64,000 nt of DNA from Lichina pygmaea. Taxonomy: Eukaryota > Ascomycota > Lichinomycetes > Lichinales > Lichinaceae. The stretch is from the NCBI GenBank assembly GCA_963422465.1, contig OY730175.1:2976001-3040000 (forward strand). The letters run 5' to 3'. This document shows positions 25,547-59,524 of the stretch, one piece after another (the stretch's first letter is position 1; each line of letters opens with the position of its first letter). A model generated the notes under the pieces. That model was given only the letters and a program-made list of their open reading frames with translations. It ran no database searches and was not told the DNA's origin. The translations under genes and the position numbers were made by a program.

Positions 25547-27050
25547 CCCTCTTGTTTTGCCAACACCTCCAAGACCACCACACACACCTTGAGATTGTTG
25601 AAGCACTCAATTAGCTATGTCATCATCTGAGACAACTGGTTGATCAAGTTGATGATGGGCTGGCTGGTGGGGTGTGACAGCAAGCTGAATATCAAGGTAC
25701 TGTGGCAAGTCAGAGTGGTCAGACGACTGATGACTGACAAAAAAGTGGAAACAAGTGACAGGGGTCTGGCACCACCAGGGAGTTTGACTGACAGGTGAGG
25801 TTGGTTTGTGACAGTCTCTGTGTCTGCGCAGTGGTTTTTCACTCAGTGCTTGTGCTGCCAGTCAAAATTGTCATAGTCCTGCTTCACATGATGCACAAGC
25901 TCAGCCTTCACAGTCAGTGTTATAGTGCAGCTCTTGAAGACAGTGTTCAGCTCTGTCATCTTGCCCTGAAGCTTACACACAAGAAACTGGAAGTGTGGCA
26001 GCACCTAATAAGAAGTCAGCATCAACACTCCATAACTTGATGGCAACTAGACACACCTGGACACAGTCCTTTGACAAGCTGATGCAACAGCTACATCTTG
26101 TCACTCTGTTGTGTGTGTGCATCAGTATGCAGACATGTAGTATATAATTATTGTTCACCTGTGTGCTGAAGTAGTGTTTCAGGCATCAAGCACACCAAAC
26201 ATTAGGCTTCTGACTGTGTTTCTGGACACAACAGTACTGCCCAGATAAGAAGCCACTTTCCTTCTAGGCAATACACAGAACAGTCTGAAGACTGGGCAAC
26301 AAGAGATAAGCAGCCAGAGACAGCAACACAGACATCATGGTGACAGCAACTGAAGACTGACAGATTCAAGTTGACAGAAACAAGCAACAACATGATGTTG
26401 AGAGTGGTGAGGTAAACAAAAACTGGTGTGAAATTGTCAAGAGCAAACCGCAAATCAGTGAAGAAGAGATCAGCAACTGGTGTCAGCAAAGTGGTATAGA
26501 AAAGAAGAACAAGAACAGAACAAAAAAAAAGAGATTGCCACTTTTTATACAAAAAATCAATATATTGCCACTATCAACAAATAGGGGAACCAACAGAGAC
26601 TGCCAAACAAACCACTGGCAACTGCCACTGACAGTGATGTTTGAAGACTCTTTGTCAACAGAAGAAGCCACCATCACAAAAGACTATGATCTTAGAGAGA
26701 GGGTAATTGTAAAGTTCTGTCACAACAACTACTTACAATAGCCCACATCTGGCAGTCCCACATCTGTTGATCATGTGATGTGGCTCTACTCACATAACCA
26801 ACAGAGAAATACAGCTCTGACCTGCATAGCTAACACAAGCCAGCCATGACCAGCCACAACTAGCTGGCTACTTGAGACAGCTGTGCAGCAGCTTGGAGAT
26901 TTGTTGGAGTCACTTAGCTAGATACTCTGTTCTCAGCTCTATAGCATATAGAGCCACTCTCACTGTTCTCTTTGGAGACCAGTGAAAAATTCTACAAACA
27001 CACTTGATTCTACCCACCAAGCAGCATCCTGAGCACACTGCTGGTAACAT
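25547..27050. other. Unassigned sequence, possibly old LTR-element debris
   Basis: I see no domain or repeat match in most of this 1.5 kb. It is CpG-poor, like the decayed elements around it. Between about 26,758 and 27,050 the sequence starts TGTTGATCATGTGATG and has a TATA-like CTATAGCATATAG 170 bp further on, which is how the LTRs in this window are built. This may be an old LTR, but no second copy or target duplication was found. Confidence 0.3.
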
Positions 27051-27450
27051 TCTCACAAGGACCAAGAGACTCTCAAGCAGGAGGTTTCATGTGTGGTGTC
27101 TCCACTGTCTCTGGACAATCTTTTCTCTTCAGAGACTTTGGCTTCTTTTAGGTCTTTGTCTCTGTTAGTCCTGGCTTCTGTGGGTTTTCTTGGTGAAAAC
27201 TCCACAGCTTCTTACTTATCACAGAGCTGAAGTTCTCAGTGGATTTCTATAAGTTCTTCTTGTTGTTGTACTCTAACTATTTGACCAGGTACTTGATCTT
27301 CTGTCTGTTTCTTCAACTGTCTAGAATTCTTTTGATGTTGTACTTTTCTTTGTTGTCCTCAAAGTGCTATTCTGTTTCAATCTCTGTATTGCTGGGTGCT
27401 GGCTCAAGAAGCAAGACATGGAATATTTGGTGTATCTATACTTTCTTCAG
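27051..27450 (-). mobile_element. Ty3/gypsy relic G4, part 1 (chromodomain end)
   Basis: From about 27,100 the sequence matches the G1b region at 31,630-31,960: first the tail of the antisense reading frame (plus strand), then the chromodomain-coding end of pol (minus strand). It stops at the LINE-B insertion and resumes at 46,405. The last 13 bases, ATACTTTCTTCAG (27,438-27,450), are the target duplication. Heavily decayed, with many breaks. Confidence 0.75.
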
Positions 27451-30654: not shown

Positions 30655-31116
30655 TGTTAAAGGCCGGGCCGGGTTCACACAGAAACTGGTACAGTCTGTT
30701 GCTTTGTAGGGTGGATTCTAGACAGGGACTCGGTAGAGGAATAGACAGGTGGGGTAACTCTCCTGTGCTATTGTCTCAGTACGATGGATTTGTATTGTGT
30801 GTTCAGCCTGGAGAGCTAATCCCTCCAGGCCCTTTGGGGGGTCTTTATACAGATGCCCCAAGGGGGGGGGTCTCCTCGAGGGGTATCATCCTTTTGCGTG
30901 GACAAGCTCCTCGCTTAGCTCCTGCTTGTCCACCGGACGAGCTCCTCGCTTAGCTCCTGCTTGTCCACCAGACAAGCTCCTCACTTAGCTCCTGCTTGTC
31001 CACCGGACAAGCTCCTCGCTTAGCTCTTGCTTGTCCACCAGATCAGTCGGATGTTGTTCCGTATGACTAACACTCCTCCCTCGCTTACCTGGGCTGTTCC
31101 GGCCTAGGCCTTAACA
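30655..31116 (-). repeat. G1b 3' LTR with 35-bp minisatellite
   Basis: Holds four copies of a 35-bp unit (GACGAGCTCCTCGCTTAGCT-type) near 30,900-31,040; the partner LTR has three. A TATA-like box (TTTATAC on the plus strand, near 30,845) and the conserved TTCAGCCTGGAGAGCTAAT segment are present. Confidence 0.92.
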
Positions 31117-31176: not shown

Positions 31177-31750
31177 CATGAACCAAAGCCAGACAACTTG
31201 AACTTGTCGTCGTGGTTTTCTCTCTTGTCGTATTGGCAAAATGGGCAAGGAATTGAAAATCGCATGCGGTGCTTGTCGTCGTGACCACGCCAAGTGTGTC
31301 GTGAGCTCTGCGTCATCTTTTTGTCGTCAGTGTGTTGAGAAGGGTTGTCGCTGCGACCTTCATCTCTCAGAATCAGAATAGAAGAAGATGGAACTTGAGC
31401 GCGAGCAGCTCAAGGCTCAGCTGCGGGAGACTGATGACCAATTGTCAAAGTTGCTTCCCCGGCAGATCCACCTCTGCTGGCAGCTGGGTTGTCTCTCACA
31501 GAAGGAGGCTGATGCCATCTGTCGTGAGCTGTCAGCCATCAAGGATCAAGAGTACCTTGATGCTCAGGAACAAGAGGCCCTCCGTGTTATTCACGAACGG
31601 GAGGCCTGTCAGGCTGCTGCTCCGCTGTCCTTTGAGGACGTCTTCTCTTCAGAGGCTTTGGCTTCTCTCAAGCTGTTGTCTCTGTCAGACCTGGTCACTG
31701 CGGGTTTGCTCGGTGGTAATCCACCAGCTTCTGGTTCATCGCAGAGCTGA
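31177..31750 (+). pseudogene. G1b antisense frame: Zn2Cys6 and coiled-coil region
   Basis: Opposite in strand to gag-pol, this region carries the counterpart of the G1a antisense ORF. A zinc cluster with spacing C-x2-C-x6-C-x8-C-x2-C-x6-C lies at about 31,265-31,365 (starts CGACRRDHAKC). A Glu/Leu/Gln-rich helical stretch (starts MELEREQLKAQL, 31,388 on) is followed by a conserved C-terminal SSEALASLK block that overlaps the end of pol. It is broken here. All six cysteines match G1a, evidence that the frame was maintained when the two lineages diverged. Confidence 0.75.
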
Positions 31751-31754
31751 AGTT

Positions 31755-34700
31755 TTCGGTTGGTTCCCACGAATTCTCCTCTTTGTCAAATCCTAACCAC
31801 TTCACCAGGTACTCGGTTTTCCGTCTGTTTCTTCGACTATCCAGGATCCTTTCGACATCGTACTCTTCTTCGTCGTCCTCGAAGTTCTATTCTGTCTTGA
31901 TCTCTGCGTCACTGGGTGCTGGTTTGAGCAGTGAGACGTGGAATACTCAGTGTATCCTTGCTTTTCGTGGCAGTCTCAGTTGATAGTTGACCTTCCCAGT
32001 GCGCTTCTTGATTTCGAATAGTCTGATTTGTACGTGGTCCAGCTTTTTGCTTGGTCGCTTTGAGCGCAGGTTTTTTGTTGATAGGTAGACCTTATCCCCC
32101 CTTTCCAGGGTTGGTCTCTTCAACCTTTTGTTGTGTAATCAGCGGGCGGTGGCGTTCTGGGCACGGTCAATTGTTGTTTTCATCATCTCGTGCATAGCAG
32201 CAAGTTTGCTAACATTGACAACGTTGCCTCCTGCTGTTGCCTGCCATCAGGGGTTTCTTCCGTAGTTCGCAAAGAACAGTGTTGTCCCTGTCACACTATG
32301 TTGCTGGTCGTTGTACGCAAACTGGGCTATTGGTAGCAGTTCCACCCAGTTATCCTGCTGGTGGTTGACGTAGTGTTGTAGATACTGCTCCATTGTCTGG
32401 TTTGTCCGCTCAGTTTGTCCATCAGTTTGTGGGTGGTAGGCTGTTGACATCCTTGTATCAATGCCAAGTTGCCTTGTCCACGTGTTCCAGAATTTCGAGG
32501 TGAAGAGTTTGTCTTGATCTGAGATAATTGTCTTTGGTAGCCCTTGGTGGCTTACCAGCTCTTTGAGTAGGACACTCGCAAGTTTGTTTGCGGTTCCTGA
32601 CTCTTTCCACAGGACCAGGTGGGTGTATTTGGTGAGCTTGTCGACAGCCACCAAAATGCTATCGTATACCACCTTTGTTGCTGGGTCTGTTGACTTTGGC
32701 AACTTGACCACAAAATCCATTGTGATAGTTTCCCATGGTGCCTCGGGTAGGTCTATTTGCTGTGCCTGCCCGTAGGGCTTATGCCTTGATGGTTTGTTCT
32801 TTGCACACTGTTCACAGTTGCGGATGAACTCTGTCACCTTGCGCTTCATTCCGTCAAAGCGGTAGTTCCTTTGGATTTTCTCCAAGGTTTTATCTCGCCC
32901 AGGGTGTCCATGCAAAGGCCTGTCATGGTGCCTCCGGATCACCTCCTCTTGTGCTCTTTCTGGCACAATTTCCTTTTTGTTTGCTGTCTTGTGGCCAAGG
33001 GTAAGGAGTGGACCCTTTGTTTCTGTTGTTGCCAGTTGGGGTTGGGCATAGACCAGGGTTTGTCCTTTTGTCGCTAGGATTGGGTGTTCCTCTGTTGTTT
33101 TCTCATCCATCAGGTCTGGTCGCCTGCTGAGAGTGTCTGCTCGAGCATTTTCAGTGCCCTTCCGGTAGAGGATTTGGAAGTTGTATGATGCTAACTCTGC
33201 CCATCGAACTTGTCATCAGTTTAGCTTCTTTGTTGTTGTGAAGTAAGCTAAGTTCTTGTGGTCCGAGTACACGTCTACCGTGTATTTTGCCCCCTCCAAG
33301 TAAGGCCTCCATTCTTGGAATGCGTCGACGATTGCTAACAACTCTTTGTCGTGAACATCATACCTCAGTTCTGGGCCAGAGAACTTTCTCGATCGGTACG
33401 CGACAGGGTGTAAGCGGTTGTCGGCGTCTGGTTGACACAAGCAGGATCCCAATGCTTGGTCCGAGGCATCAGTTTCCAGAATGATCCTCTTCTCAGGATC
33501 AAATGATGCCAAAATAGGTGTGGAGATGAATTTATTCTTCAACTCCTGGAAGGCCACTTGTTGGCTCTCCCCCCACCTAAAAGATTTGTTCTTTCTGGTT
33601 AACTCTGTCAAGGCTGCTGCTGTTCTTGAGTAGTCCTTGATGAATCATCGGTAGAAGTTTGCAAATCCTAGGAAGGATTGTACTTCTTTGAGGTTTTTGG
33701 GTGTTGGCCAGTCTCGTACTGCTGCTGTCTTTGTGTCGTCCATTCAGATTCCCTCTGTTGTCAGGATCAACCCCAAATATTCCACTTCTTTTGTGTGGAA
33801 AACACTTTTATCCAGGCGTAACCTCATTCCTGCTTTCTGGAGCGCATGTAGGATCTTCTTGACATGCTGTTTATGCTCCTCCAAGGTTCCATTGGTGTAT
33901 ACCAAGACATCATCGATATAAGCGGTGACAAATATGTCCAGGTATTGTCGGAGGACAGTGTTAATAAGTGATTGGAATGTCGCTGGTGCATTCGTAAGGC
34001 CGAATGGCATCACAGTATACTTGTAGTGCCTGTACCTTGTACAAAAGACTGTCTTCCATTCTTCGCTGTCTTTCATCCTAACCAGGTTGAAAGTACCTTG
34101 AATGTCAAACTTGGTAAACTATTTGGCTCCTTGGATCCAGTCTTGGATTTCTGATATCAATGGCAGCGGGTAGCAGTTTTTCACCGTAATCGTATTTAGC
34201 CGCTGATAATCAACACACAGTCGAAGTTTGCTGTCTTTCTTTGGCACAAACAATATCGGGTATCCAGCTGGTGATGTTGAAGATCTTATGAACCCTTTCG
34301 CTAGGTTCTCGTCCAGGTAGTCTCTCAGGGCCTCAAGCTCTTTTGCTGACAGAGTGTAGATAGGGCTGTGTGTGGGTTTTTTTCTGTCTTCCAGTGGAAT
34401 CTTGTGGTCCCACTCCTGATTTTCTGGTAGTGTCGCGATCGCTGTTTCTTCGAACATCTCCTGGTATTCTTTATACTCACTTGGCAACTGCGGTGCCTGA
34501 GTCTTGCCCATGGCGTCTTGCGTGGTGCAAAGTTGTTGTGTTCAGGGTTTCATCCAGGCCACACAGGCCTGCCCGCACTGGTGGTATTTCTTCCACTGTG
34601 TCAGTGAGATTTCTTTAATCGTCACCCCTGGTTCTGACATGACCAGTGTTCTGTCCGGAAAGACTAGTTGCCTTCTTTTCCAGTCAATCCTTGGGTTTTG

Positions 34701-36507: not shown

Positions 36508-36934
36508 TGTTAAAGGCTGGGCCAGGTTCACACAGAAACTGGTACAGTCTGTTGCTTTGTAGGGCGGATTCTAGACAGGGACTTGGTAGAGAAATAGACA
36601 GGTGGGGTAACTCTCCTGTGCTATTGTCTCAGTACGATGGATTTGTATTGTGTGTTCAGCCTGGAGAGCTAATCCTTCCGGGCCCTTTGGGGGGTCTTTA
36701 TACAGATGCCCCAAGGGGGGGGGTCTCCTCGAGGGGTATCATCCTTTTGCGTGGACGAGCTCCTCGCTTAGCTCCTGCTCGTCCACCGGACGAGCTCCTC
36801 GCTTAGCTCCTGCTCGTCCACTGGACGAGCTCCTCGCTTAGCTTTTGCTCGTCCACCGGATCGGTCGGATGTTGTTCTGTATGACTAACACTCCTCCCTC
36901 GCTTACCTGGGCTGTTCCGGCCTAGGCCTTAACA
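36508..36934 (-). repeat. G1b 5' LTR
   Basis: TGTTAAAGGC to GCCTTAACA on the plus strand; three copies of the 35-bp unit at about 36,755-36,855. On the minus strand the first interior bases are GTTTCAGCCTCTAAC (36,493-36,507), identical to the start of the G1a interior. Confidence 0.92.
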
Positions 36935-47909: not shown

Positions 47910-50509
47910 CTTCACCACAAAATCTATTGTGATAGTATCCCAAGCCACTTCTGGGAGGTCTATTTGTTAGCTCTCTCTATAGAGTTTGTGGTGTGACAGC
48001 TTGTTTTTTGCACATTCTTCACAGTTGCAAATAAATTCTGTCACTTTCCACTTTATTCTGTTGAAGTGGTATTGTCTCCAGATTTTCTCCAGAGTCTTGT
48101 CTTGCCCAGGATGTCTGTGTAGAGATCTATTTTGATATTGTCAAATCATATTCTTTTGTGAGCTCTCTGGCACTTCTTCCTTGTTTGTGGCTGTGATATT
48201 GTGGCCTAGAGTCAAAAGTGCACCTGTTTCTTCAGTTTCCACTAACTGAGGTTGAGTATAGACTAAAGTTTGTTTTTTCACTGTCAGGATTAGGTGTTCT
48301 TCTGTTGCCTTATCTGTTGTTATATCAGGGCAACTGCTGAGTGCATCTACTTGTGTGTTCTCTGATTCTTTTTGATAGAAGATCTGGAAGTTGTATAAAG
48401 CTAATAGCTCTGTCCATCAGACTTGTTGTCTGTTCAGCTTCTTTGTTATTATGAAGTAAGCTAAATTCTTGTGGTCTGAGTACATGTCCACCATGTACTT
48501 TACTTCTTCCAGGTAAGGTCTCTATTCCTGGAATACATCAACAATCACTAACAGTTTGTTGTTGTGAATATCACACCTGAGTTCTGGGCCAGAGAACTTT
48601 CTTGATCAGTATGCAACAGGATGCAAGCAGTTTTCAGTGTCTGGTTAGCACAAGCAAGATCCAAGTGCTTGGTCTGAGGCATCTGTTTCCATGATGATCT
48701 ATTATCTAGAATCAAATAATACCAGTATAGGTGTAGAGTTGAATTTCTCTTTCAGCTCCTGGAACACTCTCTCTTGACTGTTCCCCTATGTGAAGGTTTC
48801 TTTCTTCTTTGTTGATTCAGTCAAGAGTACTGCTGTTCTTGAGTATTCCTTGATGAATCATCAGTAGAAGTTTGTCAATCCTAGAAAGGATTGGACTTTC
48901 TTGAAGTTCTTGGGTGTTGGCCAGTCTTGTACTACCACTGTCTTCAAGTTGTCTATACAGATTTCTTCTGTTGTTAGGATTGATCGCAAGTACTCCACTT
49001 CGTTTATGTGGAAAACACTCTTGTTAAGGTATAATCTTATTCCTGCTTCTTGGAGTACATGTAGGATCTTCTTAACATGCTCTTGATACTTCTCCAAGGT
49101 TCTGTTGGTGTAGACCAAGATGTTGTTGATATAAGCAGTAACAAATATGTCCAGGTATTGTTGGAGAATAGTGTTAATAAGTGATTAGAACATCACCAGT
49201 GTATTTGTAAGACTGAATAGCATAACAGTATACTTGTAATTTTATTTTTTTATTTGATTCTTAAACTGATAGTAGCTTTTCAGCCATGCAGATCTTCTAG
49301 CTAAGAGTGATTTTCTTCAGAAAACTTTTAGAGGAATAAAAACTGAAGACTGGGGGTGACTAGAGGATATAGCAAAAGGAAATCTTGTAGTGACTGATAG
49401 AAAGAAAACTTCTAGATATTAGAGTGTGAATAGTGGAGTTTGAAAGCTAGATTAAACTGGTTCAGTCTTTTCAAAGACATAAACCAGTATAGAAACTTCT
49501 GTAGAAGCTCTGAGTTTGAAATAATAGAAGTGAAATCTTGAGAATTGAAAGAAGCTTGCTGTCTTTGACTTGAATAAAGAGAGCATGAAGAGATAATATG
49601 TTTCACTGTCTTTTCTGCTTGACCACAGACACATAAAGAGGTAGGAAAACCCAGAACTCCAGCTCTGAATAGAAAACTTGCCAGGCCAATTCTCCCAGTT
49701 CTGGTTTGTAGTAGCAGACTTGCCTCAGCTTTCTGTAGCTCTTTGTAGAGCTTCAGGTTGTTGTGGTGAGGCTTTTGACAAAACACCTGCCACCAAGAGT
49801 AGCTTCTTCTTTTCTTCTCCTCCCATTGGTTTTCCCACTCTTTAACAAAGAGTTTCTGTAGTTCTTTCTTTGAACTAGCCTGGTTAGTAGTTAATTGGTT
49901 TAACCAAGTGAACTTCTAATAGAGGGAGATAGTTGAGGATTCCTTTAAAAGTTTCTTCACAGAAAAGGTATAGTGGGAGATATTGGAAAAGATATTGTCC
50001 AGAAGTGTTTTCAGAGAGAAGGTTTGAATAGAAGAGAGAAAACAGACTGTGTGAAATTTGAAATAGAGATCTAGAGGTAAAAGAAAAAGCTCACTCTCTA
50101 ATAAGAAAGATGGAGTGGCTTTGAAGACACCTCCAATAAGTCTCAGGTATTTGTTCTGGAATGTGCTGAGAGAAAGATATTAGAAGATTTTCTGACAGGA
50201 TTGAACCAGATCCCCACAGCATAACTCAGTAAAGGTCTGAGTATTGCAGTGTACACAAGACGTGATGTGAGGACTGGGAAACCCCAAGTAGAATATGAAG
50301 TTCTAGAAAGAGAGGAAAGTGCTTTCTGAGCTTTTTGAAGAATAATTCTCTGGTGCTTATGCCAGTGGAGTTTTGCATCCAGGTACACTCCTAATACTCG
50401 CACTTCTTTTTTCGGTCTTAGAATCACATTCCCCAGTCTGAGCTTAAGCTGAAGATTGTCTGATCTTCTTCTGGAAAAATAAAGTATTTTATATTTCTCA
50501 GAAAAGAAG

Positions 50510-50921
50510 TGTTAAGGCCCAGGCCGGAACGGCTGAGCCGACCGAAGCGAGTGTACAGAGGTACACGGAACAATGTTCACCCGACCCGGTGGACAAGGTG
50601 GACGATGTGTAACCAGCTCGTCCAGCTCGTCCACGGGAACAATGTTCACCCGACCCGGTGGACGAGGTGGACGATGTGTAACCAGCTTGTCCAGCTCGTC
50701 CACGCAGAAAGCTGATACCCCTCGGGAGGACCCCCCCCCTCAGGCTCCTGTATATAAGAACCCAGATAGCCGGAGAGAATAGCTCTCCAGGCTGAACGCA
50801 CATTACAAGCGACAATAGCAAGAGAGTTACCCCACTTGCTATTCATCTATTGAGTCCCTGCCCTCCTCGGTCGAAGACAGGACCACCCACATTCTGTGTG
50901 AACATGGACTGGCCTTTAACA
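50510..50921 (+). repeat. G1a 5' LTR
   Basis: TGTTAAGGCC to CCTTTAACA. It contains a tandem duplication of about 65 bp (GGAACAATGTTCACCCGACC units near 50,568 and 50,637), a palindromic CGGCTGAGCCG at 50,530-50,540, and a TATA box, TATATAAG, at 50,751. AGGCTGAA at 50,789-50,796 is complementary to the first interior bases. Confidence 0.95.
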
Positions 50922-50936
50922 GTTTCAGCCTCTAAC
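50922..50936 (+). promoter_or_regulatory. G1a primer-binding site region, candidate self-priming
   Basis: The interior starts GTTTCAGCCTCTAAC with no TGG that would pair to a tRNA CCA end. TTCAGCCT (50,924-50,931) is the exact complement of AGGCTGAA 38 nt after the TATA box. The same arrangement holds in G1b, and with a different sequence in G3. Self-priming is known from Tf1-type Ty3/gypsy elements; here it is inferred. Confidence 0.55.
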
Positions 50937-50959
50937 ACATAGGACACCGGCTCAATACG

Positions 50960-53900
50960 ATGGCAGATCCACGTAGCCCTACCTCTTCGCAGGCAGGCCA
51001 ACCTCGGGCTGCGCCTCAGGCGCAAGCCCAGGAACCACCTGTCCCTACCACCCTCACCTTACCTCCAAAGCCGTTGAAGGTAGGTACGCCGAAGAGGTAC
51101 GATGGATCACGAGGGGGATTGGAATTATTCTTCTCTCAGCTTGAGCTTTACTACAGATTCAACGCCGCACAATTCCCTACAGAACAGGAGAAGGTGCTGT
51201 TCACAGCTTCCTACCTGGACGGACTGATATTTGCCTGGTTCAATGTCTACCTACGAGACTTCCTCGACAACAAGGAAGATCCCTCTAGCATGGAGACCAC
51301 GACACAGCAGATCATTGGGAGATTCTCTACCTTCAAGACCCAGATGAAGAAGACCTTTGGGGTCATTGATGAAGAACGAGATGCGGAACGAAAGCTCCAA
51401 GCACTACGGCAGACAGGGTCAGCATCAGACTTCGCGGCGAAGTTCCAACAGCTGTCAGTGAGGACACAATGGGGAGACAGTGCCTTGACAGCACTATTCT
51501 ACCAAGCTCTCAAGGAACAAGTCAAGGATGACATCGCACGAGGAGACTGACCCACCGACCTCGAGGATATGATCAACACAGCGGTACACATCGACGACCG
51601 ACAGTTTGAAGGAGAACTCGAGAAGCGAGGTAAGCATGCAAGGCCATGGGGCAAAAAGACAGCGCCAGCACAAGACAAGTACGGCTTGACACCCATGGAG
51701 ATTGATGCAACAACACCACAGGCAACAAAGAAGAAAGAAACACAGAAGTGTTACAATTGCCAGAAGGTAGGACACCTCGCAGCCAACTGCCAAAGCAAGA
51801 AGAAGAAGGAAGGCAAGGGTAAGCAGTTGAATGCCACCGGTGCCTGGAAAGGCAAGGGTATTCAGGAGCCACCGAGGGCTCCCAGAGGCACGCTACCCAT
51901 GAACCGGTCAGAAGCAACACTCCTCGGACAGGAGGACAATCTCAGACAGCACATCGAAAGACTGGAGAACGATCTGCAGAGGTCACTGGAGGACCTGCAC
52001 GCAATCCAAGACCAGATCGATAAGGTTCATTGGGAGGATGACCTGATCTCCGAATTCGACACAACAGACTACAAGATTGACATAACCGGCATGCCACCAG
52101 TTCCCGAGACACCACTACTCCGACGACAGGATGCGACCTTGTCGGAGGACGGCGAAGCAAGAGTGACGCGATGGGTGGATGACACCATCAGCATCTCACA
52201 GCCCCGAGACATCGCAGCGCAAGTGGACCATCACCAGGCTACAACACCAGCCTGCGGACGTCCTTATTGGAAAGGATGCAAGGACCACCACTGCAAGGAA
52301 CATCTCCTAGAGAAAAGGAGAAGGCACTACTTCCCTGGCCCAGAATACCACAAGAAAGCCTGGAGCATCAAGCACCAGCTAAGCCAGCAAGGGAAAGAAC
52401 ACGATGATTGCAGAGAAGACGCATGGGAGCTATGCTTCACCGAAAAATGCGAAAGACACGCGGCAGAACGCCAGGCTCAGGGTCTTGGTTGTTCAAAAAA
52501 CTAGCAGTGCTCTTCAAATCTGGAGTCGGAAGAGCAGGCAAGACAACACTCCGGAGAGAAGGGGTCAAGCAGAGCCTCGACGCGACAGCCTGCAGTCCGC
52601 ATTTTCGCATCAGGATGAGAGTCAACAGGCATCTGACAAACACCATGATTGACTCTGGAGCTACTGGCAACTTCATGTCAGAAAGTTTTGCCAGGAAGCA
52701 CAAGATCCTGACTCAGGAAAAGAGGAATCCATACCAACTAACAGTAGTGGACGGGACACCACTCTCCAACAACCAAGGACAAGTGACGAAGGAGACCAAG
52801 AACCTACAACTATGTGTCGACAGTACGACAATCAGATCAGAAGAATTTGACTTGGTCCAGATACCACATGAAGTTATATTGGGTCTTCCGTGGTTGGAAA
52901 GTCAAAACCCAAGGATCGACTGGAAAAGAAGGCATCTAGTCTTTCCGAAGAGGAGTCTGGCAACTCGAGCAGAGCCAGAGAAAGTGAGAATCAAAGAGAT
53001 CTCATATGCAGGGTGGAAGAAGCACCACCGGCGAGGGCGAGCCTATGTGGCTTGGATGAAGCCCCGAAACCATCAACTTTGCACCACGCATGACGCCGTG
53101 GGCGAGACTCAGGCACCGCAGCTGCCAAGTGAGTATAAAGACTACCAGGAGATGTTTGGTGAGGAAGCGGTCGCGACACTACCAGAACACCAAGAGTGGG
53201 ATCACGAAATTCTGCTGGAAGACGGAAAGAAACCCACACACAGCCCTATTTACGCTCTATCAGCAAAGGAGCTTGAGGCCTTAAGAGATTACCTGGACGA
53301 GAACCTAGTGAAAGGGTTCATAAGACCTTCAACATCACCGGCTGGATACCCGATATTGTTTGTGCCAAAGAAAGACGGCAAATTACAACTGTGCGTCGAC
53401 TACCGGCAGCTTAATACGATCACAATTAAGAATCGCTACCCGCTACCGTTAATATCGGAAATCCAGGACTGAATCCAAGGAGCCAAGTGGTTTACCAAGT
53501 TCGACATCCGAGGCGCTTTCAACCTGGTTAGGATGAAAGATGGCGAAGAATGGAAGACAGCCTTTCGTACGAGGTACGGGCATTACGAGTATACTGTTAT
53601 GCCATTCGGCCTTACGAATGCACCGGCAACGTTCCAATCACTCATTAACGCCATCCTCCGACAATACCTGGATATATTTGTTACCGCTTATATTGACGAT
53701 GTCTTGGTTTACACCAATGGAACCCTGGAGGAGCACAGACAGCATGTCAAGAAGATCCTACATGCGCTCCAAGAAGCAGGAATGAGGTTACGCCTTGATA
53801 AGAGCGTCTTCCACGTGAAAGAAGTGGAATATTTGGGATCAATCCTGACGACGGAAGGAATCTGTATGGACGATACAAAGACCACGGCAGTACGAGACTG

Positions 53901-55930
53901 GCCAACACCCAAAAACCTCAAAGAAGTCCAATCCTTCCTGGGATTTGCGAACTTCTACCGACGATTCATCAAGGAGTACTCGAGGACAGCAGCACCCTTG
54001 ACTGAACTAACAAAGAAGGAAGAAACCTTCACATGGGGGAACAGCCAAGAGAGAGTGTTCCAGGAGCTGAAAGAGAAGTTCACCTCCGCACCCATACTGG
54101 CATCATTTGATCCCGGACAGCAGATCATCATGGAGACAGATGCCTCAGACCAAGCACTTGGATCTTGCTTGTGTCAACCAGACGCCAAAAACCGCCTACA
54201 CCCTGTCGCATACCGATCAAGAAAGTTCTCTGGCCCAGAACTCAGGTACGATGTTCACGACAAGGAGTTGTTAGTGATTGTTGACGTATTCCAGAAGTGG
54301 AGACCTTACCTGGAAGGAGCAAAGTACACAGTGGACGTGTACTCAGACCACAAGAATTTGGCTTACTTCACGACAACGAAGAAGCTAAACAGATGACAAG
54401 TCTGATGGGCGGAGCTTTTAGCTTCATACAACTTCCAGATCTTCTATCGAAAAGGATCAGAAAACGCACGAGCGGACGCGCTTAGCAGACAGCCTGATAT
54501 GACGACAGACGACACGACAGAAGAGCGCCCAATCCTTGTGACAAAAGGACAAACTCTGGTCTATGCTCAACCTCAGTTAGCGAAAACTGAAGAAATGGGT
54601 GCACTCCTGACCCTAGGCCACAACGTTGCGGCCACAAACAAGGAAGAAGTGCCAGAGAGCGCACAAGAGGACGTGATTCGACAACATCATGATGGACCTC
54701 TACACAGACATCCTGGGCGAGACAAGACTCTGGAAAAGATCTGGAGATGTTACCACTTCAACGGAATGAAGTGGAAAGTGACGGAATTTATTCGCAACTG
54801 CGAAGAGTGTGCGAAAAACAAACTGTCACGCCACAAACCCTATGGAGAGAGTCAACAAATAGACCTCCCAGAAGTGGCTTGGGATACCATCACAATGGAT
54901 TTTGTGGTGAAGCTGCCGAGGTCAGAGGACCCGGTAACAAAGGTGAAATATGACAGTATCTTGGTGGTTGTTGACAAACTCACCAAATACGCTCACCTGA
55001 TCCCGTGGCGAGAGACAGGAACAGTGAGCGAACTCGCCAATGTCCTGCTCAAAGAATTGGTTAGCCAGCGAGGGCTACCCACAAAGATTATCTCGGATCA
55101 AGACAAACTCTTCACCTCGAAATTCTGGAACACGTGGACAAGACAGCTAGGGATAGACACGAGGATGTCTACTGCCTACCATCCACAAACAGACGGACAA
55201 ACTGAGAGAACAAACCAGACGATGGAACAGTACCTACACCACTACATCAACCACCGACAGGATGATTGGGTAGAACTGCTACCAATGGCTCAGTTTGCGT
55301 ACAACGATCAGCAACACAGCGTGACGGGCATGACGCCGTTCTTTGCGAACTACGGCAGAAACCCCCGCTGGGAAGCGATGGCGGCTGGAAGTGGCACTTC
55401 AACGAATGTCGAAAAACTCACTGCTATGCATGAGGAAATGAAGACTGCAATTGAATCCGCACAAAAGACAACAAGCCACTGTCTAAACAGCAAAAGGTTG
55501 AAGGGACCAACCCTGGAGAGGGGGGATAAGGTCTATTTGTCAACAAAAAACCTGCGCTTGAAGCGACCGAGCAAAAAGCTGGATCATGTACGAATCGGAC
55601 TGTTTGAGATTGAGAAGCGCACTGGAGAAGTCAACTACCGACTGAGACTGCCAAAAAAGGCACGGATACACCGAGTATTCCACGTCTCGCTGCTCGAGCC
55701 AGCACCCAGCAACGCAGCAATCGAAACAGAATAGCACTTCGAGGACGACAAAGAAGAGTACGATGTCGAAAGGATCCTAGACAGCCGGAGAAGTGGACGG
55801 AAAATCAAATACCTGGTCAAGTGGTTAGGGTATGACAATGAGGAGAACTTGTGGGAACCCACCGAGAACTTCAGCCCTGCGACGAACGAGAAACTGCGGA
55901 GTTTCCACCAACAAAACCCGCAGAAGCCAG
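50960..55930 (+). mobile_element. G1a gag-pol region
   Basis: Gag starts MADPRSPTSSQAGQ at 50,960. In order follow a CCHC knuckle CYNCQKVGHLAANC (about 51,748-51,790), an aspartic protease with DSGATGNF (about 52,650), RT about 53,280-53,900 with YIDDVLVY (53,691), RNase H about 54,000-54,400 with TDASDQALGS, integrase about 54,650-55,700 with an HHCC region and the DDE core (MDFVVKLP, SDQDKLF, TDGQTERTNQ), and a chromodomain about 55,740-55,930 (EYDVERILDSR, YLVKWLGY, NLWEPTENF). Chromodomains of this kind target integration to heterochromatin in related elements. Roughly three or four breaks. Confidence 0.93.
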
Positions 55931-56401
55931 GATCGATGGAGACAAAGGCCCGAGAGAAGCCAAAGCCTCCGAAGAGAAGAAGTCCTCCAAAGGCGGCGGG
56001 GACTCCACACACGTAGCCTCCTGCTCAAGATCCTCCTGATCCTTGATCGCAGCAAGCTCACGCTTGATGGCCTCACCCTCCTTCTTGGACAACACACGCA
56101 ACTGACGACGGAGACGAAGTTTGCGAGGAAGGAGAACAGACTCCTGCTCCTCGATCTCCTTCAGTTGAGCCTTGAGCTGAGTGCGCTCAAGCTCCATCTT
56201 CTCCCACTCCGACTCCGCAAGATGGAGATCGCAACAGCGACCCTTCTCAAGGCACTGACTGCAAAATGTGGACTCTGAACTGACAACACACTTAGCACGG
56301 TCACGACGACATGCGCTGCATGAAACTTTGGATACCTTGCCCATCTTGCCAACACGAGAACCGAGGACTCCACGACAATTAACACAAGATGTCCGGGTCA
56401 T
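55871..56401 (-). CDS. Antisense ORF in G1a: Zn2Cys6 zinc-cluster protein with coiled coil
   Basis: An uninterrupted 176-codon frame runs antisense to gag-pol, between pol and the 3' LTR, and its last part overlaps the end of pol tail to tail. Cys28, Cys31, Cys38, Cys47, Cys50 and Cys57 give C-x2-C-x6-C-x8-C-x2-C-x6-C, the Zn2Cys6 binuclear cluster of fungal GAL4-like regulators. The basic RRDRAK segment lies between the second and third Cys, as in that family. An N-terminal CVNC pair (6-9) precedes it. Residues 64-130 are Glu/Leu/Lys-rich with a heptad-like pattern and probably form a coiled coil for dimerisation. The C-terminus (SSEALASLGPLS) is Ser/Pro-rich. I take the ATG at 56,401; another in-frame Met is residue 20. 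All six Cys are kept in G1b. A DNA-binding regulator of the element is the natural guess, but function is unknown. Confidence 0.75.
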   Translation of the reverse strand: MTRTSCVNCRGVLGSRVGKMGKVSKVSCSACRRDRAKCVVSSESTFCSQCLEKGRCCDLHLAESEWEKMELERTQLKAQLKEIEEQESVLLPRKLRLRRQLRVLSKKEGEAIKRELAAIKDQEDLEQEATCVESPPPLEDFFSSEALASLGPLSPSILASAGFVGGNSAVSRSSQG

Positions 56402-56453
56402 GGTAAGAGAAGCGAGAGGATCTGGGGACAGAACCTTTGGAGGGAGGGGATGG

Positions 56454-56866
56454 TGTTAAGGCCCAGGCCGGAACGGCTGAGCCGACCGAAGCGAGTGTAC
56501 AGAGGTACACGGAACAATGTTCACCCGACCCGGTGGACGAGGTGGACGATGTGTAACCAGCTCGTCCAGCTCGTCCACAGGAACAATGTTCACCCAACCC
56601 GGTGGACGAGGTGGACGATGTGTAACCAGCTCGTCCAGCTTGTCCACGCAGAAAGCTGATACCCCTCGGGAGGACCCCCCCCCCTCAGGCTCCTGTATAT
56701 AAGAACCCAGATAGCCGGAGAGAATAGCTCTCCAGGCTGAACACACATTACGAGCGACAATAGCAAGAGAGTTACCCCACTTGCTATTCATCTATTGAGT
56801 CCCTGCCCTCCTCGGTCGAAGACAGGACCACCCACATTCTGTGTGAACGTGGACTGGCCTTTAACA
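56454..56866 (+). repeat. G1a 3' LTR
   Basis: TGTTAAGGCC to CCTTTAACA, followed by the AGAAG duplication. CGGCTGAGCCG is at 56,474-56,484. It differs from the 5' LTR at about eight CpG-type positions and in one C run. Confidence 0.95.
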
Positions 56867-57406
56867 AGAAGACTATTCCATGTCTTGCAGCCCATGATAG
56901 ATATTTGAGGTGTGTGTTCTTCAACTTCAGAAGGTTGCTTTTTAGAGAGTGTCCAAATACAAGCAGATTTGTATCATCTGCAAATCCCAGAGCAGAAACA
57001 CCAGTGGAAGAAGAGTGTACAGTTTCATGAAGTTCAGAAATGTAAAATAGAAACAGAATAGAAGATTAAGAGAAACCTTGGGGAACTCCACAGTGAATAG
57101 GAATAGCAGAAGACTCAGAGTCATCAAACACAAGAGTGGTAGAACAACTGGTGCAGAAAGAGAGAATCCAGGAAGATAGCCAGAGAGGAATTTCTTTTCT
57201 CTCTAGGATTTGTTGGAGGATCTTAGGTAGAACTCTGTTATAGACTCCTGAGATATCCAGAGAAAGTAGAGGTGCAACCATGCCTTCCTTTCAGACTATT
57301 TCCACTTGGGAAGTTAGTAGGAAGAGTGCTGATTCAGTTGATCTTTCTTTCCTGAAGTCTATCTGGATTTCTGGCAAAAGTCTAGCTTCTTCTGCTACCT
57401 TGCTTA

Positions 57407-59524
57407 AGTATACTTGTAATACCTGTACCTTGTACAAAAGACTGTCTTCTATTCTTCACCATCTTCTATTCTAACCAGGTTGAAAGTACTTTGAATATTG
57501 AACTTGGTGAACTATTTGGCTTCTTGGATTCAGTCCTGGATTTCCAATATTAACAGTAGCAGGTAGTAATTGTTGATCATGATCATGTTAAGCTGCCAGT
57601 AGTCAACACACAGTCAAAGCTTGCTCTTCTTTTTGGCACAAACAATATCAGGTATCCAGCCAGTGATATTGAAGATCTTATGAACTTTTTCACTAGGTTC
57701 TTGTCCAGGTAATCTTTTAGAACCTCAAACTTCTTCACTGATAGAGTGTAGATAGAGCTGTGTGTGGGTTTCTTTCTATCTTCCAGTAGAATTTCATAAT
57801 CCTAATCTTGGTGTTCTGGTAGTGTTGCAACTACTTCTGCACCAAACATCTTCTGGTAGTCTTTATACTCACTTGGCAGCTGTGGTACCTAAGTCTTGCC
57901 CACAGTGTCATGTGTAGTGCAAAGTTGATAGTTTCAGAGCTTTATCTAAGCTACATAGACTTGCTCTTACCAGTGGTGCTTCTTCCCCCCTGTATATAAG
58001 ATCTTTTTGATTCTCACTCTACTCAGATTGCCAGACTCTTTCTTGGAAAGACTAGGTACCTTCTTTTCCAGTTGATTCTTGGGTTTTGGCTTTCCAACCA
58101 CAGAAAACCCAATATAACTTTGTGTGGTATCTGGACCAAGTTAAATTCTTCTGATCTGATTGTTGTACTGTTGACACACAGTTGTAGGTTCTTGGTCTTC
58201 TTTGTCACTTGTCCTTGGTTGTTGCAGAGTGGTGTCCTGTCCACTACTATTAGCTAGTATAGATTCCTTTTCTCTTGAATCAGGATCCCATGTTTTCTGG
58301 CAAAACTTTCTGACATGAAGTTGCTGGTAGCTCCAGAGTCAATCATGGTGTTTGTCAGGCATCTGTTAACTCTCATCTTGATGTGAAAATACAGACTGCA
58401 GACTGTTATTTCAAGGCTCTGCTTGACTTTTCTTTCTGGAGTGTTGTCTTGCCTGCTTTTCCAACTCCAGATTTGAAGAGCACTGCTAGTTTTTTGAACA
58501 CCTGAGGCCCTGGGCCTGGCATTCTGCCACATGTCTTTCACATTTCTCAGTGAAGTATAGCTTCCATGTGTTTTCTCTGCAATCATCATGTTCTTTCCCT
58601 TGTTGACTTATCTGGTATCTGATGCTCCAGACTTTCTTGTGGTACTCTGGACTAGAGAAATGTTTTTTTCTTCTTTTCTCTAGAAGCTGCTTCTTGCAGT
58701 GGTGGTTCTCACACTCTTTCCAATAGGGGTGTCTGCAGGCTGGTGTTGTAGTCTGGTGGAGGTCCACTTGGGTTGTGATATCTTGGAGCTGTGAGATACT
58801 GATAGTGTCATCCACTTATCACATCACTCTTGCTTCACTAGCCTCTGACAAGATCATGTTCTGTTGTCAGAGTATTGGTGTCTTGGGAACTGGTGGCATG
58901 CTGGCTACATGAATCTTGTAGTCTGTTGTGTTGAATTCAGAGATCAGGTCATTCTCCCAATAGACCTTGTCAATCTGATCTTAGACTATGTGCAGGTTTT
59001 CTAGTGATCTTTGCAGATTGTTCTCCAGTATTTTGATGTGCTGTTTGAGATTGTCCTTCTGTCTAAGAAGTGTTGCTTCAGGCCAGTTCATAGGCAGTAT
59101 ACCTCTGGGAGCTCTTGATAGCTCCTGAATACTCTTGCCTTTCCAGGTGCTGGTGGTATTTAACTGCTTACTCTTGCCTTCTTCTTTTCTCTTGCTTCAG
59201 CAGTTGGCTGTGAGGTGGCCTACCTTCTGGCAATTGTAACACTTCTGTGTTTCTTTCTTCTTTGTTGTCTGTGGTGTTGTTACATCAAATTCTATAGGCA
59301 TCAAGCTGTATTTGTTCTGTACTGGTGTTCTCTTCTTACTCTATAGTCTCACATACTTGCCTCACTTCTCAAGCTCTTGTTTGAACTGTCAGTTATTGAT
59401 ATGTACTGCTGTGTTGATTATGTCTTCAAGATCAGAGTCAGTCTCCACATGTGATGTCATCTTTGACTTGTTCCTTGAGAGCTTGGTAGAACAGTGCTGT
59501 TAAAACACTGTCCCCCCACTATGT
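57407..59524 (-). mobile_element. Ty3/gypsy relic G4, part 3 (RT, protease, Gag)
   Basis: Colinear with G1a 51,480-53,600 in reverse. RT N-terminal sequence lies at 57,420-57,900, a protease with DSGATSNF near 58,345, a knuckle region near 59,200-59,250, and Gag up to 59,520, where it stops at a G3 LTR fragment. The 5' LTR is missing. Strongly decayed with many breaks. Confidence 0.88.

Follow-up and report, generated by a model that had tools for sequence, protein, structure and literature searches.

An Antisense Zn2Cys6-like Gene and Its U3 Region in a Ty3/Gypsy Element of Lichina pygmaea: Selection, Joint Exchange and a Possible Regulatory Role

Introduction

Genes that lie in antisense orientation between pol and the 3′ long terminal repeat (LTR) are known in the retrotransposons Boty (brtn), Grande, RIRE2 and Retand (PMC7264820, PMC8365987, PMC11963269). 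It is also reported that brtn lies antisense in the Boty-like gypsy elements of the fungus Botrytis cinerea (Zhao et al. 2011, Virology, as described in PMC7264820, PMC8365987, PMC4227169, PMC5987419), that a transcript of Monilinia is similar to pol and BRTN (PMC5987419), and that TRP28 of Retand is predicted to bind DNA and GENE23 of Grande is nuclear and has its own promoter (PMC11963269, PMC7264820). Here, we describe an antisense gene at this place in G1a, a gypsy element located in a 64,000-nucleotide stretch of Lichina pygmaea DNA (contig OY730175.1, positions 2,976,001 to 3,040,000; the whole stretch is called the window). The cysteine pattern of its product is that of the Zn2Cys6 regulators, and comparison of copies indicates that the gene is under purifying selection between lineages and was exchanged together with the U3 region of the LTR.

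Antisense open reading frames at this place were thus already known. In a literature search, with subscription papers mostly outside it, no Zn2Cys6-like antisense gene of an LTR element appeared among the titles and abstract openings listed. Like the G1a gene, brtn belongs to a fungal chromodomain gypsy element, as an additional gene that is placed between pol and the 3′ LTR and oriented against gag-pol. Neither a zinc cluster nor an exchange with U3 appears in the descriptions of brtn consulted. Retand (TRP28), Grande (gene23) and RIRE2 share with G1a the place and orientation of the gene and its conservation in most copies or clusters; however, as far as these descriptions go, they are plant elements with other domains, have no Zn2Cys6 protein described, and the Retand lineage is not a chromovirus. 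The human retrovirus HTLV-1 has a spliced antisense gene, HBZ, which is expressed from the 3′ LTR side and encodes a nuclear bZIP regulator with a dimerisation helix, and the HTLV-1 U3 carries tandem response elements. HBZ is named in PMC11963269. The gene described here is like HBZ in its antisense origin, its helix and its tandem U3 elements, but HBZ is a bZIP protein and not a zinc cluster, and no homology is claimed.

Results

An earlier note, made from the window alone, had described a 176-codon frame opposite gag-pol in G1a, with six regularly spaced cysteines, a basic stretch between the second and the third, and a tail-to-tail overlap with the end of pol. All these features were confirmed. 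The minus-strand frame (Table 1) translates to 176 amino acids plus a stop, with Cys 28, 31, 38, 47, 50 and 57 in the arrangement C-x2-C-x6-C-x8-C-x2-C-x6-C, the basic RRDRAK between Cys 2 and Cys 3 of the series, and a charged stretch downstream of the cluster. Since the chromodomain frame ends at 56016, the overlap with pol is 146 nt, and about three quarters of the gene, including the whole cysteine cluster, falls outside pol. The Zn2Cys6 pattern occurs in one of the 107 stop-to-stop frames of at least 100 amino acids in the window (one of 397 with at least 60) and arose in 4 of 200,000 shuffled sequences of the same amino-acid composition as the protein.

The source genome (32.47 Mb in 8 contigs) was searched with the antisense gene, and 150 of 314 candidates were scored. 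All 150 match the antisense frame, so the family numbers no fewer than 150 copies, which fall into three or more lineages. Among them, 61 copies (lineage A) are 85-100% identical and 53 of these have no in-frame stop, while the other 89 are 57-69% identical and 45 have no stop. A tree of the fetched frames separates lineage A, a decayed sister lineage D, and a lineage B composed of a young part, B1, and older copies, B2, among them the diverged element G1b of the window. A search with the integrase part of pol scored the best 95 of 1203 candidates and thus covers the closest pol copies only. Beside 94 of these 95 an antisense match follows pol on the opposite strand, at a distance of 143 nt in 56 cases and 146 nt in 35. 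The absence of the frame from most family members, which the earlier note had named as grounds for dropping its idea, is the opposite of what was seen: a frame between pol and the 3′ LTR is conserved in most of the copies scored. The single pol match lacking a scored antisense neighbour is at C4:3218145-3219470. Family members encode proteins of about 176-190 amino acids, and each of the six cysteines is retained in 59-61 of the 61 lineage-A copies and in 19-20 of 20 B1 copies, 14 of which were picked as stop-free. Cys 6 and Cys 9, which the window copy has in addition, are not conserved, being present in 33 and 15 of the 61 lineage-A copies, respectively.

Selection was assessed over codons 1-128, outside the pol overlap, by comparing lineages A and B1 in a sample of 400 of the 1220 possible pairs. 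The proportions of synonymous (pS) and nonsynonymous (pN) differences were 0.59 and 0.20, and omega (dN/dS) was 0.20; it was 0.09 in the cluster region and 0.51 in the overlap part. Differences by codon position were 33, 21 and 56. When the base changes were re-dealt to random sites, 82.5 ± 5.5 nonsynonymous changes and 3.2 stops were expected, compared with 59.9 and 0 in the real data (60 pairs with 20 replicates apiece; the two distributions overlap, the largest observed value being 74 and the smallest null value 65). The remaining five frames of the same stretch had omega values of 0.39-2.18, the lowest belonging to the opposite-strand frame whose third positions coincide with those of the gene. 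For pol, omega was 0.09-0.10 at pS 0.53-0.55 in a comparison of three A and three B1 copies with one B2 copy, L066, in which stop codons were skipped. All 20 loci L071-L090 were selected as stop-free, so the B statistics are biased toward intact copies, and the lineage B pol end was taken from the window copy only. On this sequence evidence, purifying selection between lineages acts on the part of the antisense frame that does not overlap pol. Together with its presence beside nearly all the scored pol copies, this ratio supports the view that the frame belongs to the element and is selected.

The protein agrees with the general Zn2Cys6 pattern, C-x2-C-x6-C-x5..12-C-x2-C-x6..8-C. In a structural model of the motif, two short helices are predicted at the CxxC pairs around a binuclear cluster, and all 23 Foldseek matches in the PDB were Zn2Cys6 regulators, although the scores were weak. 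A predicted structure without a zinc cluster, which would have spoken against the earlier note, was therefore not what the model suggested. GAL4, HAP1, PPR1, PUT3, LEU3 and Pho7 are like the antisense protein in their cysteine spacing, in the modelled cluster fold and in having a helix after the cluster. Host Zn2Cys6 regulators usually have several hundred residues and a large middle domain; the antisense protein, in contrast, is short and element-borne, and scores below the Pfam cut-off. Protein searches with it returned only close relatives resembling copies of the same element family, and no host or named relative.

The segments of the element do not share one history. Between A and B1, identity was 97.9% in pol, 73.2% in the antisense gene, 66.3% in U3 and 99.1% in R-U5, whereas between B1 and B2 it was 80.7, 91.2, 95.0 and 73.4%, respectively (12 of 58 A, 6 B1 and 2-3 B2 loci; L058 and L059 were omitted, leaving 58 of 60 A loci). 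At the sites that separate A from B2 (5 A, 6 B1 and 2 B2 loci), all six B1 copies, the only ones for which flanks exist, are A-like up to a point about 60-90 nt ahead of the antisense stop, B-like from there across the antisense gene and U3, and A-like again from the U3/R border on; the two breakpoints are shared by the six. There are scattered exceptions: of the separating sites inside the antisense gene, 79 have the B state in every one of the six copies, whereas 6 have the A state in every one and another 6 agree with neither lineage. These patterns indicate that B1 is a chimera, with body, R and U5 from one lineage and antisense gene plus U3 from another, moved as one cassette; the breakpoints are those that a single template switch would leave, together with the strand transfers that are usual when an LTR element is reverse-transcribed. 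Beyond the six copies with flanks, support comes from the pol matches outside lineage A (within the best 95 of 1203): in 31 of these 35, pol is 92-97% identical to that of G1a, so the chimera amplified well. The class of U3 (A/D-like or B-like) equalled the class of the gene in all 79 U3s examined. Recombination of LTR family members by template switching during transposition bursts has been described (PMC5668417); both cases are recombination within a family, and in G1 the exchanged piece is the antisense gene plus U3.

U3 could be excised from 55 of the 58 A loci. It contains tandem units with paired half-sites upstream of a TATA-like box, GTGGACGAG..CTCGTCCAC in A and B, and the number of units varies among copies. 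In lineage D the half-sites are GTGGCAGAG..CTCTGCCAC in six of eight copies and mixed in two. Comparison of A with L062 shows the same two bases altered in both dyad arms; in one lineage, then, the half-sites have altered together. Eleven U3s from lineages A, B and D were tested, and in every one the half-sites coincide with the longest inverted repeat, whose arms measure 7 to 12 bp. RNA folding of one U3 from each of three lineages was far better than that of shuffled sequences (z of -7.4, -7.5 and -5.4, the first for G1a segment 56525-56650). The dyads may be protein sites, RNA hairpins or both.

The element that carries the gene is a Ty3/gypsy chromovirus. Pfam searches on six separate frames identified gag, CCHC, protease, RT-RNase H, integrase, SH3_Tf2-1 and chromodomain, in that order, between paired LTRs that begin with TG and end with CA and are flanked by a 5-bp target-site duplication, and the chromodomain is terminal, as in chromoviruses. 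The pol of this copy is broken by a TAG at 55732-55734, and the chromodomain frame runs on to a TAG at 56014-56016. The antisense ATG is about 50 bp from the 3′ LTR border, with the polypurine tract in between. G1a (50505-56871) is inserted in an older repeat of another family (49237-57406), of which there are six copies in the window; its flanks align with the other copies and rejoin at the insertion point, yielding the 5-bp duplication. Just past this repeat, at 57407-59524, a truncated stretch related to the G1 body lies in inverted orientation (82.9% identity over 2134 columns).

The earlier note was also right about two relatives in the window. G1b has the same six cysteines with the same spacing, though its copy contains two in-frame stops, and G4 retains the tail of the gene and nothing else of it. 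A C-terminal block, FFSSEALASLEPLSP (codons 139-153), is strongly conserved; it lies within the pol overlap in G1a and outside the listed pol frame 31695-31886 in G1b. Several D copies (L063, L091-L096) share a stop at one Trp codon, and some at one Gln codon, which suggests decay of the C-to-T type (RIP-like or methylation-driven) or common descent. One 3.5-kb stretch, L063, contains two antisense frames of differing lineage, B-like and D-like, at 94-603 and 1498-2016, an arrangement that, from the sequence, is nested or tandem. In a public protein, P0081, the antisense helix is fused to a stretch resembling an alternate pol-strand frame (compare window 31909-32091, minus strand), apparently through an inverted rearrangement.

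Table 1. Coordinates in the window of G1a, its antisense gene and U3 dyads, and of related features of G1b and G4.
Feature	Coordinates	Strand	Basis or remark
Target-site duplication, 5 bp, left	50505..50509	.	right copy, identical bases, 56867-56871
5′ LTR of G1a (TGTTAA...TTAACA)	50510..50921	+	97.8% identity to 3′ LTR
Two dyad units, 5′ LTR, upstream of TATA-like TATATAAG	50589..50703	.	
gag-pol of G1a, several frames: gag, CCHC knuckle, protease, RT, RNase H, integrase, SH3_Tf2-1	50936..55734	+	ORFs, Pfam frame by frame
pol chromodomain end, overlaps antisense gene from 55871	55738..56016	+	Pfam Chromo, E 1.1e-14
Antisense gene, lineage A, 176-aa Zn2Cys6-like protein with long helix	55871..56401	-	ATG 56399-56401, stop 55871-55873
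Codons Cys 28 to Cys 57, six-cysteine cluster	56231..56320	-	pattern match begins at 56320
Polypurine tract between antisense ATG and 3′ LTR	56439..56450	+	assigned by position
3′ LTR of G1a	56454..56866	+	LTR comparison and sequence
U3 dyad unit 1 (GTGGACGAG..CTCGTCCAC), candidate operator or hairpin	56533..56578	.	
U3 dyad unit 2, 3′ LTR	56602..56647	.	
Antisense gene tail remnant in G4	27048..27230	+	
3′ LTR region of G1b, four U3 dyad units (35-bp spacing) at 30901-31038	30655..31116	-	
Antisense gene of G1b (lineage B2), two in-frame stops	31178..31750	+	frame and alignment
5′ LTR region of G1b, three dyad units at 36754-36856	36508..36934	-	

Discussion

We consider it very nearly certain that the antisense gene is real and selected. 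The suggestion of the earlier note that the element encodes its own regulator gains from the fact that the gene is element-borne and selected and that its product has a Zn2Cys6-like model; the regulatory role itself stays inferred. To the reading that the antisense protein controls transcription of its own LTR we give a probability of roughly 0.5. The protein would be translated from antisense RNA initiated within or close to the 3′ LTR, would dimerise via its long helix and would enter the nucleus. There, the dimer would bind the tandem U3 dyads upstream of the TATA-like box, at the half-site pair GTGGACGAG/CTCGTCCAC or, in the majority of lineage-D copies, GTGGCAGAG/CTCTGCCAC, and binding would either raise or limit transcription of the element, so that gene and U3 would form a self-contained control cassette. 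A broader proposal is tentative: that this cassette of an antisense Zn2Cys6-like protein and its own U3 operator dyads was exchanged as a unit between element lineages through recombination during reverse transcription, that its recognition site shifted in one lineage as the half-sites altered together, and that a complex-retrovirus logic like that of Tax/HBZ evolved independently in a fungal gypsy element.

Several observations weigh against control of the LTR by this protein. The profile half of the check suggested for the zinc cluster failed, while the model spoke for it: whole proteins scored at best 17.3 bits with PF00172, below the curated cut-off of 21 bits (the detection threshold). 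One 54-aa piece reached 19.7, and two of eight A and one of two B1 proteins had no match at E 0.1. Because the cut-off was not reached, we call the protein Zn2Cys6-like, and the Foldseek scores were also weak. Within lineage A, omega was 0.91 (400 sampled pairs), near the value of 1 that the earlier note had said would refute its idea, and within B1 it was 0.38. We read the former as decay after insertion because the ratio between lineages is 0.20; used alone, the within-lineage ratio would have misled. Young copies differ for the most part through such decay, of which changes of R to C or H, and CpG sites, make up a large share. On the side of selection, in a McDonald-Kreitman-type test of the non-overlapping part, fixed differences (39.5 synonymous, 37.5 nonsynonymous) compared with the non-CpG polymorphism of lineage A (16 and 40) showed an excess of nonsynonymous polymorphism (p 0.013); the test was not significant in B1 (10 and 8; p 0.8), nor in the overlap part. 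Concerning U3, shuffled sequences had arms of 6.0-6.9 on average with maxima of 8-11, and thus not every copy has arms long enough to be significant by their length. Finally, gene and U3 are neighbours, so the match of their classes shows co-transfer and not co-dependence.

That last point leads to the possibility, which we take seriously while putting it at less than even odds, that tandem duplication and palindrome-correcting template switches maintain the dyads, which would have no binding function and would have moved with the gene only as its neighbours. The variable number of units, the sufficiency of a single crossover to make the chimera, and arms no longer than the longest shuffled arm in several U3s all suit such a history; it sits less well with the longest inverted repeat falling on the half-sites in every U3 tested, upstream of the TATA-like box, despite an A-B identity in U3 of only 66%. 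Alternatively, the protein may be selected and act in the life cycle, as a nucleic-acid chaperone or as a nuclear-entry or integration-targeting factor of the pre-integration complex. Selection and presence beside nearly all scored pol copies suit any function in the element, and zinc clusters bind nucleic acid. According to PMC7264820, the function of such genes is not known in Boty and the plant elements. Nevertheless, we find this role rather unlikely, as a CCHC knuckle and a chromodomain are already encoded in pol and gag and the linkage with the U3 dyads is more simply read as promoter control.

The strong hairpins in the folded U3s, and the roles of antisense RNA discussed for such elements (PMC7264820), would be expected if antisense RNA and hairpins mattered, through double-stranded RNA silencing or copy-number control, and coding were secondary. 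This is improbable, since the low omega of the antisense frame (the next lowest frame, at 0.39, shares its third positions) and the conserved cysteines need selection at the level of the protein. Zn2Cys6 proteins are a family of the fungal host, and the fold matches are host regulators; a captured host gene could thus persist as a passenger that brings the element no benefit. However, no host relative was found in the protein searches, and decay of a passenger, which predicts omega near 1 between lineages, was rejected by the value observed at pS 0.59, making this explanation highly improbable. As for the idea that the frame mirrors pol or the base composition by chance, the overlap with pol is its one attraction, most of the gene lies outside pol, and the re-dealt changes, the omegas of the other frames and the composition shuffles rule it out, leaving it a negligible chance.

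Control of the LTR by the antisense protein can be tested directly, because a motif of the DNA-binding type, selection outside the overlap and candidate targets occur in the same element, and because nature has made the exchange: one body with two cassettes, both of which amplified. If this function is true, the element would carry the kind of regulator used by its fungal host.
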